DNA from: Nitrospirota bacterium
GTDB taxonomy: Bacteria; Nitrospirota; UBA9217
Reading direction: 5' to 3'
DNA: 35,017 nucleotides
Assembly (NCBI GenBank): GCA_020052615.1
Contig: JAGVOT010000126.1
Span: forward strand, 1 to 35,017
Shown here one piece after another: positions 5,844 to 29,366 of the stretch. How positions within the stretch are numbered: the stretch's first letter is position 1; each line of letters starts with the position of its first letter. The notes under the pieces are model-generated. The model did no database searches. It worked only from the letters and a program-made list of their open reading frames with translations, and was not told where the DNA came from. Both the position numbers and the translations under genes were made by a program.

Positions 5844-8345
5844 ATGGAACAAACAAGACCCCATCAGAACGCGGACCTTCTCCGGGAGAACGACGGGCTG
5901 CGGAAGAAACACGCCGCCGCGATGCAGTATATCCGGCGCAAGGTCGACCAGCTCCTGACCGTGATGGGCACGTCTCCGCTCCGGCCCGAGGAGCTTGACG
6001 ACAATACCCTCATCGAGCTCGACCCCATCAGCATCATCAGCGATTCCTTCATGCAGGTCCTGCATCATCTCAAGGAAACCAACGAGCAGCTCAGGGTAGC
6101 CCACGAGGAGATCACCGCGATCTTCGACTCCGCCGGCATGGGGATCCTCGTTATCGACCGGGACATGCGCATTCTCGCTCTCAACCGGAAGATCAAGGAG
6201 CAGTTTGGGATCGATCGAAAAATCACTGATGGCATGTGCTGCCGCGACCTGCTCTGCAAAAAGGATGTTGAGGCGGAGTGCCCGGCCCGGAAGGCCATCG
6301 AATCCGGTGCCAGCGTCGAACGCGTGATGGACTTGAATGGTTTGCATTTCGACGTTGTTGCGACGCCGATCCGGGACAAGAGCGGCATTATCACCCAGGT
6401 CGTGCTCGTCTATATGGACCTGACCGAACGCATACGGGCCCAGGAGGACCTTCGCAGGAGCGAGGAGCGCTACCGGGACCTGTTCGAGAACTCCACCGAC
6501 CTGATCCAGGTCCTGAACGCCGACGGCACGATTCGCTATGTCAACCAGGCATGGCGGGAATCGCTCGGATACGGACCGGATGAGGTGGCCAGCATGTCGA
6601 TCTTCGATATCATCCATCCGGACTGCAAGGACTGCGGCCCCGAATTCAAGAGCGTTGTCTGCGGCCACAAAGGCGGGCGGTTCGAGACGCTTTTCCTTAC
6701 CAAGGCGCGGGAAACGATCATCGTGGAGGGCAATGTCAGCCCCATGATGGAACACGGCGCCTTCGTCGGCACCCGGGGCATCTTCCGCGACATTACCCTG
6801 CGCAAGCAGGCGGAGATCGCCGTAATCGCGGAGCGGGAGCAGCTTGCCGTGACCCTGCGGAGCATCGGCGACGGAGTGATCACCACCGATATCAGCAGCA
6901 ACGTGGTGCTGATCAACAAGGTGGCCGAACACCTGACCGGATGGACGCAGGACGCCGCCCGCGGCATGAACATCCGGGAGGTCTTTTCGATCAAGAGCGA
7001 AAAGACCGGCGAAGACACCGCCTGCCCGATCGAATGCGTGCTCAGGACCGGAGCGCCCTGCGAACTTGAAGAAAGCGCCGTCCTGATCGCCCGCGACGGC
7101 AGGCGGCACCTCATAACCGACAGCGTGGCGCCGATCCGTGACAAGGACAGCGTCGTCACCGGGGCGGTCCTGGTCTTCCGGGACATCACTGACCGCAAGA
7201 GGCTTGAAGACCGGATCATCAAGTCCGAGAAGATCGAGTCCCTCGGCGTGCTGGCGGGAGGCATCGCCCACGACTTCAACAACCTCCTGAACACCATCAT
7301 CGCCAATATCGACATCGCCGCGCGGTTTGACAGACCCGACAGCGAAGCGCAGAAAAGCCTGGCCCGCGCCCAAAAGGCATCGACCAAGGCGAAAGAGCTT
7401 ACCCAGCAGCTCCTCACCTTTTCGAAAGGAGGCGCTCCGGTCAAGAAGCTGGCCGCCATCGCCGACCTCATCCGGGACACCGCCGACTTCGGCACCCGGG
7501 GCACAAACGTCCGGTGCGACTATGCGCTGCCCGAAGACCTCTGGAGCGCCGAGATCGACGAAGGCCAGATCAGTCAGGTGATCCAAAACCTGGTCCTTAA
7601 CGCCGTCCAGGCCATGCCCCAGGGAGGTACGATCAGCATCAGCGCGCGCAACATCGAGGTCGGACGCGCGGCCTTCACCGCGCTCGGGGAGGGCCGCTAT
7701 GTTGTCATTGCCGTGCGCGATCACGGCCACGGGATCCCTCCGGAGAACTTGAGCCGGATCTTCGAACCCTATTTCACCACGAAAGACACCGGGAGCGGTC
7801 TCGGTCTTGCCACCACCTATTCTATCGTTAAGAAACATGACGGCATGATCGATGTGGAATCCTCTGTAGGAGGCGGCACGACCTTCACCGTATATCTCCC
7901 CGCATCCCTGGCGGCTGCCGTGCATACCGGACTGCCGGCCGAACCGCTCCCCAGGAGGGAGATCAGCGGAAGGATCCTGGTCATGGATGACGATGCATTG
8001 GTCCTCGAGACAGCTGGCGTGCTCCTGGAGATGCTCGGCTATCAGGCGGACTTCGCATCCGACGGCGACGAGGCACTGGAAAAATATCGGGAGGCCCTTC
8101 GGTCCGGTGCATCCTACAGCGCGGTCATCATGGATCTTACGATCCCCGGCGGAAAGGGCGGCAGATCAACGATCCGGCACCTTCTTGAGATCGACCCGCT
8201 TGCAAAGGCTATTGTTTCAAGCGGGTATTCCACCGATGCGGTCATGGCAAACTATGCACGGCACGGCTTCGCCGGCATCGTGGTGAAGCCCTACACCATC
8301 GACGATCTGGACGCCGAACTGCAGCGGGTGCTTGGAAATAAATAG
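5844..8345 (+). CDS. Triple-PAS hybrid sensor histidine kinase
   Basis: 833-residue soluble sensor kinase without membrane segments. Order: N-terminal coiled coil (~5-85), PAS1 (~88-199), PAS2 (~209-325), PAS3 (~331-454), HisKA with GGIAHDFNN and phospho-His H476, HATPase_c (~570-690; NLVLNAVQAM, DHGHGIP, GSGLGL), and a C-terminal receiver (~707-833) with acidic DDD, phospho-acceptor D764 and K815. All three PAS domains carry cysteine clusters: CC-x4-C-x7-C in PAS1, C-x2-C-x8-C in PAS2, C-x3-C-x7-C in PAS3. ATG 5844 is preferred over an in-frame ATG at 5775, which would overlap tusA. Neither has a good Shine-Dalgarno. Position after yeeE-tusA suggests, but does not prove, sensing of sulfur or redox state. 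No dedicated output protein is adjacent except the HD-GYP protein downstream. Confidence 0.93.
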   Translation: MEQTRPHQNADLLRENDGLRKKHAAAMQYIRRKVDQLLTVMGTSPLRPEELDDNTLIELDPISIISDSFMQVLHHLKETNEQLRVAHEEITAIFDSAGMGILVIDRDMRILALNRKIKEQFGIDRKITDGMCCRDLLCKKDVEAECPARKAIESGASVERVMDLNGLHFDVVATPIRDKSGIITQVVLVYMDLTERIRAQEDLRRSEERYRDLFENSTDLIQVLNADGTIRYVNQAWRESLGYGPDEVASMSIFDIIHPDCKDCGPEFKSVVCGHKGGRFETLFLTKARETIIVEGNVSPMMEHGAFVGTRGIFRDITLRKQAEIAVIAEREQLAVTLRSIGDGVITTDISSNVVLINKVAEHLTGWTQDAARGMNIREVFSIKSEKTGEDTACPIECVLRTGAPCELEESAVLIARDGRRHLITDSVAPIRDKDSVVTGAVLVFRDITDRKRLEDRIIKSEKIESLGVLAGGIAHDFNNLLNTIIANIDIAARFDRPDSEAQKSLARAQKASTKAKELTQQLLTFSKGGAPVKKLAAIADLIRDTADFGTRGTNVRCDYALPEDLWSAEIDEGQISQVIQNLVLNAVQAMPQGGTISISARNIEVGRAAFTALGEGRYVVIAVRDHGHGIPPENLSRIFEPYFTTKDTGSGLGLATTYSIVKKHDGMIDVESSVGGGTTFTVYLPASLAAAVHTGLPAEPLPRREISGRILVMDDDALVLETAGVLLEMLGYQADFASDGDEALEKYREALRSGASYSAVIMDLTIPGGKGGRSTIRHLLEIDPLAKAIVSSGYSTDAVMANYARHGFAGIVVKPYTIDDLDAELQRVLGNK

Positions 8346-8410
8346 CATTTTTGCCGGCGCTGAGGATCGATGCTCCCTGCCGCAATCTTCAAAGTGATAT
8401 GAAAGTTCTC

Positions 8411-8439
8411 TTGCTCCGGCCGCCCGCATCTGGTACTAT
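8411..8439 (+). promoter_or_regulatory. Possible promoter of the HD-GYP gene
   Basis: TTGCTC (8411-8416), 17-bp spacer, TACTAT (8434-8439), with an overlapping TATACT (8437-8442). It lies 26 bp before ATG 8466, leaving a short leader with no Shine-Dalgarno. Confidence 0.4.
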
Positions 8440-8465
8440 ACTTTCGCTTTTATTTACCCACGACC

Positions 8466-9641
8466 ATGCCGAATCGAAGCTACGATAGCAGCCAGCAGTC
8501 GCCGTTCAAAAGCGAGATGGACGATCTTCTTCTGCGTCTCGCCCTGACCGAGCGCAAGCTGTCCCTGACCTCCCAGAAGCTCGAGGCCAGGAACAAGGAG
8601 CTTTCGGCCATCTTCCGTCTCTCCGAGACCATCGGCAGCGAGCGGCAGATCAACCGTCTGTGCGAGCGAACGGCTGAAGAGATACGCCGCACCCTGAACG
8701 TCGACACGGTCTGCATCCTCTTGCTGGATGAGCAGAGCGGCGACCTCGTCACGGCGACCTCCCTCCAGGGGTCCATCATCGGCGGATACCATCCCCGCGT
8801 CAAAGCGGGCGACGGGCTTCTCTGGCAGGCCATGAAGACCGGCAGGCCCCTCCACCTTCCCGGCAGCGCTGCCGCAAAACAGTTCGCCGGGGCCCAGGCG
8901 GGACAGGCGGGTATTGCCATTCCGATCAGGACCCGGGGAAGAACGCTCGGGGTCATCTACGCCTGCGGAAAGAAGAGCGGACAGGAGTTCTCTGCCCGCG
9001 AGCGGGACATGCTCAGCGGCATCTCCAATCAGGCGGCCTTCGCCCTGGACAACGCCACCCTCTACCATGATCTCGAGAACCTCTTCGTAGGGATCGCCTG
9101 GTCCTTCGCCTCGGCACTGGACGCCAAGTCACCCTGGACAGCAGGCCATTCCAAGCGTGTTACCCAGTATTCGGTTGCCATCGCCGAGGAGCTCGGCCAG
9201 CCCGCGGATTTTGTCAACTCGATCCAGACCTGCGGCCTTCTGCACGACATCGGCAAGATCGCCATTTCCGAGAAGATCCTCGACAAGCCGGGCGCCATCA
9301 CGCGGCAGGAGCGGACCGCCATCGCCGAGCACGCTTCCCAGGGCGCGAAGATCCTCGAGCACATCGACAACTTCCAGCCGCTCCTCCCGGGGATCCGGCA
9401 CCACCACGAGCGGTGGGACGGCCGCGGGTTTCCCGACCGGCTCTGTGCAGGCGACATCCCCCTCATGGCACGGGTGCTAGCGGTCGCCGATGCCTACGAT
9501 GCCATGACTTCGGACCGGCCTTACCGGCAGCGCCGGAACCGGGTCGAAGCGATCGCAGAGATCGAACGCTGCTCGGGGAGCCAGTTCGATCCCGAGATCG
9601 TCGAAGCCTTCGTCGAGATCACCAGCCACAAGATGTTTTGA
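8466..9641 (+). CDS. GAF/HD-GYP domain protein, probable c-di-GMP phosphodiesterase
   Basis: 391 residues. A short coiled coil (~20-50) leads into a GAF domain (~50-195; sensor of a small ligand), then an HD-GYP domain (~200-390). Metal and catalytic elements are visible: GHSKRV, HDIGK (H260, D261), EHASQGA, HHHERWDGRGFP, and DAYDAMTSDRPYR. The signature GYP reads GFP, a change accepted in many active HD-GYP proteins. It would hydrolyse cyclic di-GMP in the cytoplasm under GAF control. It follows the hybrid kinase by 120 bp and probably has its own promoter. The convergent ftsH transcript meets it at the 9749-9779 hairpin. Confidence 0.93.
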   Translation: MPNRSYDSSQQSPFKSEMDDLLLRLALTERKLSLTSQKLEARNKELSAIFRLSETIGSERQINRLCERTAEEIRRTLNVDTVCILLLDEQSGDLVTATSLQGSIIGGYHPRVKAGDGLLWQAMKTGRPLHLPGSAAAKQFAGAQAGQAGIAIPIRTRGRTLGVIYACGKKSGQEFSARERDMLSGISNQAAFALDNATLYHDLENLFVGIAWSFASALDAKSPWTAGHSKRVTQYSVAIAEELGQPADFVNSIQTCGLLHDIGKIAISEKILDKPGAITRQERTAIAEHASQGAKILEHIDNFQPLLPGIRHHHERWDGRGFPDRLCAGDIPLMARVLAVADAYDAMTSDRPYRQRRNRVEAIAEIERCSGSQFDPEIVEAFVEITSHKMF

Positions 9642-17063: not shown

Positions 17064-17420
17064 ATGGCTCCGGCAAACAAAGAACAGGTCATGTCCTTTC
17101 GTGGACGCGTCTGGATCGACGGCAAGGAAGGCACGTTCATCGGCTACGGCCGCGTTGTCCTGCTCGAGCGGATCCTCGAGCACGGCTCCATCACCAAGGC
17201 GGCCAAATCCATGGAGATGTCCTACCGCCACGCCTGGGACCTGGTGGACTCCATGAACCGGCAGGCCGGAAAACCTTTCGTCGAGCTTGCCACAGGCGGG
17301 AAAGGCGGAGGTGGCGCCATGGTCACCGAAAACGGCAAGAAGGCAATAAAGGTGTTCTGGCGCTTCCACAGGGATCTTCAGGCCTTTCTGAAACGCGAAG
17401 AGAAAAGGCTCAAGCTGTGA
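17064..17420 (+). CDS. ModE-type HTH transcriptional regulator (DNA-binding domain only)
   Basis: 118 residues matching the N-terminal winged helix of ModE: FIGYGRVVLLERILEHGSITKAAKSMEMSYRHAWDLVDSMN, then FVELATGGKGGGGAMVTENGKK. It has no TOBE/Mop ligand-binding domain, so any molybdate or tungstate response would have to come from elsewhere or from DNA-level autoregulation. ATG 17064 is favoured by the leaderless promoter; ATG 17091 is the next candidate. It is the first gene of a tight operon (30-bp gap) with three TupA-like proteins and TupBC, so it is the likely local regulator of tungsten/molybdenum oxyanion uptake. No separate operator could be identified. Confidence 0.85.
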   Translation: MAPANKEQVMSFRGRVWIDGKEGTFIGYGRVVLLERILEHGSITKAAKSMEMSYRHAWDLVDSMNRQAGKPFVELATGGKGGGGAMVTENGKKAIKVFWRFHRDLQAFLKREEKRLKL

Positions 17421-17450: not shown

Positions 17451-18244
17451 ATGGCCACATCTCCTGTAACGCTCGTAATCGCATCTACGACCAGCACGCA
17501 GAATTCAGGATTATTCGACGTACTCATCCCTGCTTTCGGGAAGGAGGCACACTCCCGCGCGAACGTGAAGGTCATTGCCGTTGGCACGGGCCAGGCCATG
17601 CGGCTCGCCAAAAAGATGAGGCCGACCTGCTCTTTGTGCACGATCCATTTCGGGAGGAAAAATTTGTTGCCGATGGGTACGGCGTCAACCGCCGCACAGT
17701 GATGCACAGCGACTTCGTTGTCCTCGGCCCGTCGAACGATCCCGCCCGCATTAAGGGACACCGCTCTGCCATCGATGCCTTTGAACTGATCTCGGAAACA
17801 GGCGCATCCTTCGTCTCCCGGGGCGACGACTCCGGGACGAACGTCAAAGAGCTGGACCTCTGGGACGATGCCGGGGTGAATCCGAAGGGCAAAAGCTGGT
17901 ACATCGAGGCAGGCGCAAAGATGGGTGATGCTCTTCTGATCGCGGACGCCAAGAAGGCATACATCCTGTCGGACCGCGGCACGTTCCTGAACTATGAATC
18001 CCGGCTCGGGCTGAAGGTCCTGGTTGAAGGCGACGCATTGCTGAAAAATCAGTACAGCGTTATCGCGGTAAGCCCGGCGCGGTTCCCCGGTGTTAATTAC
18101 CGGGAAGCCATGGACTTCATTGCCTATGTCACCTCACCGGAGGGACAGAAACTCATTGCTCGCTATAAGAAGCGCGGCGTGAGCGCGTTCGTCCCCGATG
18201 CTGTCCCGGGGGCCGCCGCGGAATCGAAAAAAGAAAAACGATAG
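17451..18244 (+). pseudogene. TupA-like oxyanion-binding protein 1, frameshifted and without signal peptide
   Basis: Two frames together encode a TupA-type protein. The first (17451-17614) gives VIASTTSTQNSGLFDVLIP and AVGTGQAMRLAKK. The second, in the -1 frame from about 17615, gives DEADLLFVHDPFREEKFVADGYG, FVVLGPSNDPARIKG, SRGDDSGTNVKEL, and a normal C-terminus ending at TAG 18242-18244. The join is an A5 run (17610-17614): one extra A restores a continuous frame. AGGAGG precedes the ATG, but the first residues (MATSPVTLVIAS) are not a signal peptide, and the in-frame codons upstream do not supply one. So it is either a decaying paralogue, a sequencing error, or (less likely) a -1 slippage gene on CAAAAAG. 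The SGTH motif reads SGTN. Confidence 0.75.
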
Positions 18245-18257
18245 GAGGATTTCCGTG

Positions 18258-19116
18258 ATGAATCGTAACGTATTGTCGATGCTGTTCTGTCTTGCGATGT
18301 CAATGCTCACGCCCATGATGGCTGCTGCCGAACCGGCAATCGCGCAACCGAAGAAGATCATGCTTGCCAGCACCATCGGCCCGATCGATGCGGGGATCGT
18401 CGGAGCGCTGGAAGCAGCCTTCACGAAGAAGACCGGCATTACGGTGGAGCACACCGGCGCCGGAACGGGCAAGGCCATCCAGATGGCCGAAACCGGAAAG
18501 TACGACCTTCTTCTCGTGCACGCAAAGGTCCTGGAAGAGAAGTTCGTCGCCGACGGCTTCGGCACGAAACGATATGACCTTATGTACAACGACTTTGTCA
18601 TCCTCGGCCCACCGTCCGACCCGGCAAAGATCAGGGGCACGAAGGACGCGGCTGCTGCATTGCGCAGGATCAGGGAAGCAAAGGCCCTCTTTGTGACCCG
18701 CGGCGATAAATCAGGAACTCACGTGAAGGAAATCGAGGTCTGGAAAAAGGCGGGCATCGAGCCGCAGGGCGCCTGGTATCACGTGTTCGAACAGGGCTCC
18801 AAGGGGAACGCCCCGACCCTTGCCTTCACCAATGAAAAGCAGGCCTACACGCTCATGGACCGCGCCACCTACATCACCATGAAGTCGAAGATCACCCTGC
18901 AGGTGCTGGTCGAACGGGACGATATTCTTCTTAAATTATATCACCCTGATCCCGGTCAACCCGGCGAAGTTCCCGCAGGTCCGTCACGCAGAGACGGTGC
19001 AACTCGTGGACTGGCTGCAGGGCAGGGATGCCCAGCTCATCATCCGCGATTTCGGCAAGGATACGTATGGCGAACCGTTGTTCTTCCCCAATTCGCCTGA
19101 AGGAAAAAGACTGTAA
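18258..19116 (+). pseudogene. TupA-like binding protein 2, frameshifted near the C-terminus
   Basis: The signal peptide (cleaved near AAAEP) and most of a periplasmic TupA-like protein are intact: LASTIGPIDAGIVGALEAAF, HTGAGTGKAIQMAETGKYDLLLVHAK, YNDFVILGPPSDPAKI, TRGDKSGTHVKE, AYTLMDRATYI. At an A3 run (18933-18935) the frame breaks. Skipping one A restores NYITLIPVNPAKFPQ, LVDWLQGRDAQLIIRDFGK and a proper end at TAA 19114-19116. In the unshifted frame it ends at 19100 with a nonsense tail. The ligand loop STIGPIDAG differs from the STTSxxxSG loop of copies 1 and 3, so its original ligand may have differed. AGGAGG (18243-18248) overlaps the stop of copy 1, so translation is coupled. Confidence 0.75.
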
Positions 19117-19142
19117 CCCATCACTTTGAGGAGGATCATGCA

Positions 19143-19952
19143 ATGAAAAAGACAATCACTCTGGTATTGCTCTTAACGTTTGTCGCAACGGTTGCCTTTG
19201 CTGAAACGCGCATCCGCATGGCATCCACGACGAGCATCCAGAATTCGGGCCTTTTCGACTATCTGCTGCCGGTCTTCGAGAAGAAAACAGGCATCAAGAT
19301 CGACGTGGTGGCCGTAGGCACGGGCGCATCCATTGAGATCGGCAAACGCGGGGACGCGGACGTAGTCTTCGTCCACGCCAAGGAGCAGGAGCTCAAAGCG
19401 GTCGAGGAAGGCTTCTTCGTGAACCGCCATGACGTCATGTACAACGATTTCGTGATCATCGGCCCGCCGGCCGATCCCGCGAAGATTAAGGGCATGAGGT
19501 CGGCCGCAGATGCCCTGAAGGCAATCTCCCTTTCCGGCTCCTCCTTCGTTTCCCGGGGCGACAGGTCGGGCACGCACACCAAGGAGCTCGCTCTGTGGAA
19601 AAAGGTCGGAATCGACCCCACAGGCCAGAAGTGGTACCTTGAGGCCGGCCAGGGCATGGAGAAGACCCAGCGCGTCGCCGACGAAAAAAAGGCCTACACG
19701 CTAACCGACCGGGGCACCTGGCTCGCTACGAAGGGCAAGGACAAGCTTGACCTGGTGATTGTTCTCGAAGGAGATACGGTCCTTTTCAACCAATACGGCG
19801 TTATGGCGGTCAATCCCGAAAGGCACAAGCACGTGAAATTCAAAGAAGCCATGCAGTTCGTGGACTGGATCATCGCCAGGGACGGCCAGGCTGCTGTTGC
19901 GGCCTTTAAAGACAAGAACGGAAACCCGCTGTTCATCCCGAACGCCAAATAA
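19143..19952 (+). CDS. tupA: Tungstate-type ABC transporter substrate-binding protein (TupA-like), intact copy
   Basis: 269 residues with a clear Sec signal peptide (1-20, MKKTITLVLLLTFVATVAFA). TupA-family landmarks: MASTTSIQNSGLFDYLLPVF, VAVGTGASIEIGKRGDADVVFVHAK, YNDFVIIGPPADPAKIKG, SRGDRSGTHTKEL, AYTLTDRGTWLA and FNQYGVMAVNP. It should bind tungstate (possibly molybdate) in the periplasm and deliver it to TupB/TupC. GAGGAGG lies a suitable distance before the ATG, 26 bp after copy 2. It is the only one of three tandem TupA genes with an unbroken frame, and it directly precedes an attenuator-like hairpin and the permease. Oxyanion choice is inferred from the family. Confidence 0.92.
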   Translation: MKKTITLVLLLTFVATVAFAETRIRMASTTSIQNSGLFDYLLPVFEKKTGIKIDVVAVGTGASIEIGKRGDADVVFVHAKEQELKAVEEGFFVNRHDVMYNDFVIIGPPADPAKIKGMRSAADALKAISLSGSSFVSRGDRSGTHTKELALWKKVGIDPTGQKWYLEAGQGMEKTQRVADEKKAYTLTDRGTWLATKGKDKLDLVIVLEGDTVLFNQYGVMAVNPERHKHVKFKEAMQFVDWIIARDGQAAVAAFKDKNGNPLFIPNAK

Positions 19953-20036: not shown

Positions 20037-20741
20037 ATGGACTCATTTCTGCAAGGATTCATCAAAGCCTTTGAGCTGATCCTCAATCTTGATCAGACGC
20101 TTTTCGGGATCATATTCCTCTCCCTGAAGGTCTCAGGCTCTGCCCTGTTCATGGCGACCGCCATCGGACTTCCCGCCGGCGCTCTGCTCGGGCTGAAACG
20201 CTTTCCGGGCCGGGACCTTGCCATCAGCAGCGTGAACACGCTCATGGGCCTTCCGCCGGTCGTCGTAGGCCTCTTCGTCTATCTCCTGCTGTCGCGCAAG
20301 GGTCCGCTGGGATTTATGGGGCTGCTCTATTCTCCCACCGCTATGGTCGTTGCGCAAACCATTCTGGCACTCCCCATTGTGACTGCACTTTGCCACTCTG
20401 CGATCGTGAACATCGATCCCATCATCCGGCTTTCGGCGCGCACCCTCGGAGCGACGCCCGGCCAGGAGACCATCGCGGTCATCCGTGAAGCGCGCTATGG
20501 GATCTTCTCCGCCGTCATCGCCGCCTTCGGCAGGGTCATGGCCGAGGTCGGTGCCATCCTCATCGTGGGCGGCAACATTGCCGGCTATACGCGCGTCATG
20601 ACAACTACGATCGCTCTTGAGACGGACAAGGGGGATTTCGAACTCGCCCTTGCCCTCGGGATCATCCTCCTGACAATCTCCTTCGTCATCAATGCCCTGT
20701 TGCATGGCGTCCAGAAGAGAGGCGCGGTCAAGACAGCATGA
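20037..20741 (+). CDS. tupB: Tungstate-type ABC transporter permease TupB
   Basis: 234-residue inner-membrane permease with five or six hydrophobic helices and the cytoplasmic EAA-type loop (RLSARTLGATPGQETIAVIREARYGIFSAVIAAFGRVMAEVG region; key Gly in TLGATPGQ). The family segment GLPPVVVGLFVYLLLSRKGPLG is typical of TupB. ATG 20037 is preferred to a GTG at 20025, which would lie inside the terminator stem. No Shine-Dalgarno is available outside the hairpin. Its last codons overlap tupC by 4 bp (ATGA), so the two are translationally coupled. It forms the channel for the oxyanion delivered by TupA. Confidence 0.9.
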   Translation: MDSFLQGFIKAFELILNLDQTLFGIIFLSLKVSGSALFMATAIGLPAGALLGLKRFPGRDLAISSVNTLMGLPPVVVGLFVYLLLSRKGPLGFMGLLYSPTAMVVAQTILALPIVTALCHSAIVNIDPIIRLSARTLGATPGQETIAVIREARYGIFSAVIAAFGRVMAEVGAILIVGGNIAGYTRVMTTTIALETDKGDFELALALGIILLTISFVINALLHGVQKRGAVKTA

Positions 20742-21391
20742 AACTGGTCCTTTCCCATATACGGAAGGATTACAACGGCAAACCGGTCCTGAAGGACTGC
20801 TCCTATGCCTTCAAGGGCAGCGGCACCTATGTTCTCATGGGTCCGAACGGATGCGGAAAGTCCACCCTGCTGCGGATCTGCTCGTTGCTCGAAGCGCCCG
20901 ATGGCGGCGGCCTCGTGTTCCAGGACGACGGTACGCCACTGATCAGGGACCTTGCGCTCCGTCGGCGCATCACGCTCGTCCTGCCCCGGACAGGCGTGTT
21001 CAATACGACTGCCTTCCACAACGCTGCCTATGGGTTGAAAGTACGCGGCATGGGCGGCAACCTCCTGAAGAAGGAGGTCGATAGGGCGCTGGACATTGTC
21101 GGTCTGGCGCACAAGTCAGGCCAGAATGCCCGGACGCTCTCGAGCGGAGAGACCCAGCGGCTCGGCATAGCCCGCGCGCTCGCCATCGGTCCGGAGATCC
21201 TGTTCCTCGACGAACCCACCGCTTCGGTGGACGAGGAGAACACCGCGATCATCGAGTCGATCATCGGAAACCTGAAAAAGGACGGCCGAACAATGGTCAT
21301 TATGACCACGCACGATACGGACCAGGCGGAACGGCTTGCGGATACGCTTCTCTTAATGAAGGAAGGCAGCATAGCTGACCGGAAGCATTGA
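20738..21391 (+). CDS. tupC: Tungstate-type ABC transporter ATPase TupC
   Basis: 217-residue ABC ATPase: Walker A GPNGCGKST (35-43), signature LSSGETQRLGIARAL (134-148), Walker B ILFLDEPTAS (D158, E159), switch His H192. The Q-loop is unusual: where most families have VFQ, this protein reads VLPRTGVFN, placing Pro at residue 83 in the Gln position. No TOBE regulatory domain, as usual for TupC. It couples ATP hydrolysis to transport through TupB, with which it overlaps by 4 bp. It is the last gene of the modE-tup operon; the gap after it (21392-21622) contains a promoter candidate for the next gene and no obvious terminator. Confidence 0.92.
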   Translation: MKLVLSHIRKDYNGKPVLKDCSYAFKGSGTYVLMGPNGCGKSTLLRICSLLEAPDGGGLVFQDDGTPLIRDLALRRRITLVLPRTGVFNTTAFHNAAYGLKVRGMGGNLLKKEVDRALDIVGLAHKSGQNARTLSSGETQRLGIARALAIGPEILFLDEPTASVDEENTAIIESIIGNLKKDGRTMVIMTTHDTDQAERLADTLLLMKEGSIADRKH

Positions 21392-28787: not shown

Positions 28788-29366
28788 ATGAATGAAGCGG
28801 TGATCAGGATATTCGAGGAAGGGGCGCGGGTCAAGGTCGCCTTCGCGAAAGAGAACGCAGACCGGATCGTTGAGGTCGTGCATCTCATCGCACGGACCTT
28901 CCGAGAAGGCCACAAGGTGATCCTCTTCGGGAACGGCGGGAGCGCCACCGACGCATCCCATATCGCCGCTGAGTTCGTAAACCGCTTCCTCATCGACCGG
29001 CCTCCGCTCCCCGCCATCGCTCTGAACACCGACATCGCCGTGCTCACCAGCATCAGCAATGATTTCGGCTATGACCAGATATTCTCCAAGCAGCTCTCCG
29101 CCCTGGGGCATGAAGGAGATGTGGTCATCGGCATCAGCACCAGCGGCAATTCGCCGAACGTCATCAAGGCGCTGGACGTTGCCAGAAAGAACGGCATGAA
29201 GACCGTCGTTCTCACCGGCGGCACCGGCGGCAAGATGACCAGCATTGCAGACTACACCTTCGTCGTCCCCTCAAGACATACCCCCCATATCCAGGAGACG
29301 CACATAACCCTGGGCCATATCCTCTGTCAGCTGGTGGACGAGGAGCTCTTCGGCGGTAACCGGTGA
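28788..29366 (+). CDS. gmhA: Sedoheptulose-7-phosphate isomerase GmhA
   Basis: 192-residue SIS-domain enzyme making D-glycero-D-manno-heptose 7-phosphate for the LPS inner core. Seen: FGNGGSATDASHIAAEF, NDFGYDQIFSKQL, ISTSGNSPNVIKAL, and ETHITLGHILCQLVD, whose Glu and His residues form the zinc/catalytic site. Length is normal for GmhA. GGAGAG precedes the ATG and the upstream promoter is perfect. It implies a heptose-containing envelope polysaccharide, hence a Gram-negative cell. A DHS-like gene follows 4 bp downstream and is surely cotranscribed. Confidence 0.95.
   Translation: MNEAVIRIFEEGARVKVAFAKENADRIVEVVHLIARTFREGHKVILFGNGGSATDASHIAAEFVNRFLIDRPPLPAIALNTDIAVLTSISNDFGYDQIFSKQLSALGHEGDVVIGISTSGNSPNVIKALDVARKNGMKTVVLTGGTGGKMTSIADYTFVVPSRHTPHIQETHITLGHILCQLVDEELFGGNR

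Follow-up and report, generated by a model that had tools for sequence, protein, structure and literature searches.

The window analysed here is one whole contig of 35,017 bases (G000:C83), belonging to a genome of 3.99 Mb in 135 contigs that is 97.8% complete and, among named public genomes, closest to metagenome-assembled genomes of Nitrospirae. On its forward strand stands a modE-type gene, followed by three tandem TupA-type genes (c1, c2 and c3), tupB and tupC, an arrangement that the preliminary description had given correctly and with exact coordinates. This locus is a tungstate-uptake operon with three old TupA paralog types. The modE-type gene (17064..17420; 118 aa; TIGR00637, 87 bits, and HTH_1) is syntenic in relatives at 72–87% identity, and in family searches it has the HTH domain only, without the TOBE/Mop ligand domain. 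Beyond the binding proteins, both the tupB permease (20037..20741; NF041773, 180 bits; NF038017, 255 bits) and the tupC ATPase (20738..21391; 217 aa; ABC_tran; NF041774 tupC, 98 bits; no TOBE domain detected) are intact. An Rfam scan of the window at the gathering threshold returned neither molybdenum/tungsten riboswitches nor other RNAs.

The first two binding-protein genes are each interrupted by a single frame change. c1, a TupA paralog lacking a signal peptide, starts at the ATG at 17451, behind a good ribosome-binding site. Its 5' part (17451..17615) encodes the first 55 residues, among them the STTS pocket motif, and its 3' part (17615..18244), in a shifted frame, supplies 209 more and with them H, R, T and D of the pocket. 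Between the two, an A5 run (17610..17614) differs in length by a single base; relatives have AAGAAAGGC there and no long A-run. c2 has a signal peptide and the loop STIGPIDAG in its 5' part (18258..18935) and continues for 60 residues in a shifted frame (18934..19116), the single-base length difference lying at an A3 run (18933..18935) through which relatives maintain one continuous frame. Both breaks therefore lie exactly where they had first been placed, and each junction falls within a codon of the point at which intact orthologs run through. In family searches the pieces of all three genes match PBP_like_2 (PF12849) and/or the NCBIfam TupA model NF041772, with the exception of the c2 tail, which alone matches no model and aligns with all c2 orthologs at 73–85% identity.

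The third gene, c3 (19143..19952), is an intact and canonical periplasmic TupA. Its hydrophobic leader, MKKTITLVLLLTFVATVAFA, has the hydropathy of a signal peptide; signal peptides were judged throughout by position and hydropathy rather than by a dedicated predictor. The pocket is complete, with S-T-T-S, H, R, T and D aligned to those of 3lr1 (E=1e-83), and S replaces T at the first position. The NF041772 score of 260 bits lies below the equivalog cut-off of 400 and places c3 in the TupA family. 3lr1 is the TupA of Geobacter sulfurreducens, and 5my5, used below, is that of Desulfovibrio alaskensis G20. Together, c3 and TupBC are predicted to form a working importer.

Comparison with relatives

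The order modE-c1-c2-c3-tupB-tupC recurs with every frame continuous in G002, which is of the same genus, and in G008, which is of another. The breaks are not chance features, since both frames run through in G002 at 76–85% identity and in the same gene order. Intact c1 orthologs are present in G002, G008 and G009, and intact c2 orthologs in G002, G008, G010, G006 and WY3.bin121; the last three genomes have modE-c2-c3-tupBC without c1, while G001, G004 and G011 have modE-c3-tupBC with neither. Comparison with close relatives, which the preliminary description had called for, thus yields intact orthologs in both same-genus and more distant Nitrospirota, instead of the many further lesions expected of plain pseudogenes. 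Among the genomes compared, both breaks are private to the window genome. A short contig of G002 (L035/L033, G002:C155) carries another c2-c3-tupB-tupC set, which is partial; as this genome is listed with 8% contamination, the second set may stem from another organism.

In a tree of 42 protein rows, c1, c2 and c3 fall into three separate clades with support of 98–100% each. Two features that had been noted as possible damage acquire a different meaning here: the absence of a signal peptide from c1 is real and common to c1 orthologs, and the STIGPIDAG loop of c2 is likewise real and shared by all five orthologs in which the loop is visible. On the alignments, neither is a lesion: each is a conserved trait of long standing in its own paralog clade. 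In c2 the TTTS pocket motif of TupA is replaced by S-T-I-G, while H, R, T and D are kept; the predicted fold is that of TupA (pLDDT 84.9; 5my5, TM 0.77/0.87). c2 is the rarer of the two accessory genes, occurring in 8 of 296 genomes. A further exported TupA-like paralog, with the loop TGSPGELG, was seen in G055 (L048:9251-9937) and G295 (L168:4867-5733), beside or between tupA copies in the position that c2 occupies in the window; it forms a long branch of its own.

Age and origin of the two frameshifts

c1 and c2 both have a disabled frame with intact orthologs elsewhere, as pseudogenes do. Measured piecewise against G002 by the NG86 method, dN/dS is 0.14–0.18 for c1 and 0.07–0.16 for c2, close to the 0.12 of c3 and the 0.20 of tupC; this check, also proposed at the outset, thus gave about 0.07–0.18 for the broken genes and no sign of relaxed selection. 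Relative-rate tests with G008 as outgroup agree, since unique amino-acid changes number 16 in the window lineage and 17 in G002 for c1, and 20 and 21 respectively for c2. As protein evolution in c1 and c2 has not been faster in the window lineage, the breaks are either very young or not real. That the two genes are long-dead pseudogenes in neutral decay is hence very improbable. Frameshifts in two neighbouring accessory paralogs, both absent from several relatives, would suit such decay, which is contradicted by the rate tests, in which c1 and c2 have no more amino-acid changes than their intact G002 counterparts, by the low dN/dS of the pieces and by the presence of exactly one lesion in each gene.

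It had also been suggested that slippage or phase variation might control the extra binding proteins; in this reading their expression would be tuned at the A-runs, with programmed slippage of the ribosomal or the transcriptional kind. At c1 the zero frame does read C AAA AAG, and a -1 slip would yield a protein of family length, but this is expected of any one-base deletion, and the canonical heptamer A AAA AAG is absent. A programmed -1 frameshift is marked by a conserved X XXY YYZ heptamer with a stimulatory structure; at c1 we find C AAA AAG in the window only. The runs are just A5 and A3, the two sites would require opposite shifts, and RNA structure beside them is ordinary, with no stable element relative to shuffled sequence (z -1.25, 1.25 and 0.15). 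Relatives with intact frames have AAGAAAGGC at the c1 site and a leucine codon followed by AAY TAY at the c2 site, so that no A-run or slippery sequence is conserved at either break. Slippage or phase variation is left without support, and we give it very little credence.

The remaining choice lies between mutation and error. If both breaks were consensus or assembly errors, c1 and c2 would be intact in the organism, and much about the locus is compatible with this: the draft genome is fragmented into 135 contigs and probably metagenome-derived, both differences fall at short A-runs, and the two frames are otherwise clean, with a signal of purifying selection and no acceleration of rate. Moreover, the locus was chosen for its breaks, two local errors within 1.3 kb are possible, and at approximately one frameshift per 130 kb the chance that 4 Mb of genome would contain a pair this close is not very small. 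Against this, a tblastn survey of 435 kb of the genome against relatives, 136 kb of which was covered by homology, identified one broken gene besides c1 and c2. A coding-frame model recorded 15 frame switches in 446 kb of coding sequence, against 6 in 362 kb and 13 in 386 kb in two relatives; many of these switches fall at gene overlaps, and the sensitivity of the model is limited, given that it flagged the c2 break and missed that of c1. Neither survey shows an excess, and genome-wide frameshift error was accordingly rejected as the cause. Nor is a general homopolymer problem visible in the sampled part of the genome: 252 long open frames contain 195 A5 runs, 69 A6 runs and 26 runs of seven A or longer without losing frame, and there is an in-frame A7 in c3. 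Error at these two sites retains an appreciable chance, well short of even. The other broken gene is a decayed PAS/GGDEF-type gene just upstream of a MoaB-like ORF (L054:680-1460, G000:C85), with at least two frame changes, of which the frameshift at L054:1337 looks real. A candidate frameshift at position 29361 of the window proved to be a shadow ORF and was discarded.

We consider real and recent inactivation of c1 and c2 slightly more probable than error, at odds of about one in two. Of the readings offered beforehand, this is the one that fits all results. It would entail two independent losses, both very recent, as neither gene bears a further lesion, and this counts against it. In its favour, c1 and c2 occur in some relatives and are missing from others, a patchy distribution suggestive of dispensability over evolutionary time and in keeping with inactivation. 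That the breaks are mutations rather than errors, and that the genes are dispensable, we infer, as we do the ligands and roles of c1 and c2. In the picture that we propose, c3 would be the ordinary periplasmic binding protein feeding TupBC, c2 another binding protein that is exported, its ligand loop altered, and c1 a TupA-like protein of the cytosol whose pocket is intact. In the window genome c1 and c2 would each have suffered one very recent, lineage-specific single-base frameshift, resulting in truncated products and leaving c3-TupBC whole; most likely, these are first steps in the loss of two dispensable accessory genes.

A signal-less clade of TupA-like proteins

The breaks themselves are ordinary, and it is the conserved signal-less clade that is worth following. 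In a sample of 296 genomes from the phylum, c1 orthologs were identified in 12 genomes besides G002, at 65–71% identity to the G002 copy. The 13 intact proteins come from nine families and are separated by a clear gap from other TupA homologs, at 54% or less; G012 has a partial ortholog. In all 13 the protein starts some 11 residues ahead of the pocket motif and a hydrophobic leader is absent, while the neighbouring c3 proteins do have one. The start in G255 is less certain because its frame is open further upstream. c1 thus lacks the export signal of a periplasmic TupA. It keeps every residue equivalent to those of the D. alaskensis TupA pocket, S taking the first position just as it does in c3. 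Orthologs score 222 bits against NF041772, below the equivalog cut-off of 400, and the AlphaFold2 model has both lobes of a complete TupA fold (mean pLDDT 86.1), with 5my5 as its best match (TM 0.88/0.93). With all 13 intact orthologs leaderless and in possession of the whole tungstate pocket, c1 is, by prediction, a cytosolic TupA-like clade and not a periplasmic TupA.

Among relatives, c1 usually precedes the canonical tupA immediately. In family f1 it mostly follows modE, and in genus g8 it follows modABC. At four loci in families other than f1 a LysR-type gene (MEDHRLKAFCL...) is divergently adjacent to c1 (L164:3967-4878, L167:6593-7498, L168:6733-7668 and L169:1516-2457). At L162 a LysR gene is near c1, with a formate-dehydrogenase-like molybdopterin/2Fe-2S gene between them; in G169 the neighbour of c1 is a formate-dehydrogenase-like gene. 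These neighbourhoods suit a cytosolic oxyanion receptor. A tight link between c1 and ModE was rejected as a rule, because, of ten c1 loci from families other than f1, just one has modE beside c1. Association with MoeA-PBP proved uninformative, since almost every tupA-bearing relative tested has this fusion, whether c1 is there or not. In a plasmid collection the best c1 matches listed are about 50% identical, and the two inspected, from Nostoc and Microvirga, have an N-terminal extension of about 28–33 residues. Our search of the open-licence literature found no description of a TupA without a signal peptide, and the c1 clade is apparently an undescribed and widespread family.

Intact c1 in relatives would most likely bind tungstate or molybdate in the cell, as a sensor for the operon regulator or a carrier to cofactor synthesis. 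At somewhat less than even odds, we tentatively regard the Nitrospirota c1 clade, conserved, cytosolic, free-standing and TupA-like, at the head of a tungstate-uptake operon and often beside a regulator, as an intracellular tungstate/molybdate receptor. Its proposed role is that of a sensing partner for the HTH-only ModE or the neighbouring LysR protein, or of an oxyanion carrier to MoeA. Tungstate and molybdate must be told apart after uptake by intracellular means that are poorly known, and a TupA-type binding protein put to cytosolic use, as proposed for c1, offers a directly testable candidate. c1 also illustrates that, when a single sequence lacks a signal peptide, this is not safely read as damage.

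Comparison with known systems

The pocket of D. alaskensis TupA consists of TTTS, H59, R118, T124 and D170 (PMC5517513). Like the TupA of TupABC systems, c3 has a signal peptide, a TTTS-type motif and equivalents of H59, R118, T124 and D170, and its gene lies ahead of tupBC; c1 shares both pocket and fold. Unlike it, c1 has no signal peptide in any ortholog with a visible start, and c2 has STIG for TTTS. The locus further departs from TupABC in that a single permease/ATPase pair is accompanied by three binding-protein genes, of which two are broken in the window.

Two fusion proteins combine a cytosolic binding-protein domain with another function. MoeA-PBP, of the archaeal MoeA1 type, has a cytosolic PBP-type domain, is thought to handle intracellular tungstate and often occurs with TupA (PMC11733289). 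The window genome encodes such a fusion (643 aa ORF), and on contig G000:C113 it lies close to an ordinary MoeA (L170:4632-6563 and 7387-8703); possession of both suggests separate tungsten and molybdenum insertion enzymes. c1 is not a member of this family, as the PBP domain of MoeA-PBP is PF12727, whereas c1 is a free-standing protein of the TupA clade with PF12849. The second fusion joins a ModE-type HTH to a PBP_like domain and is encoded, for example, on the Microvirga terrae plasmid pR24_1 (L181/L182; WP_173946034.1), divergent to a tupBCA-like set. It resembles the window locus in placing a ModE-type HTH and a cytosolic PBP domain beside tungstate transport genes, and differs in being one protein with PF12727, whereas the HTH-only ModE and the signal-less TupA of the window are separate genes; between c1 and this fusion we found no sequence similarity beyond short chance matches. 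By analogy, at most, c1 may work as the MoeA-PBP and ModE-PBP_like fusions do; if this is true, it would be the split counterpart of both.
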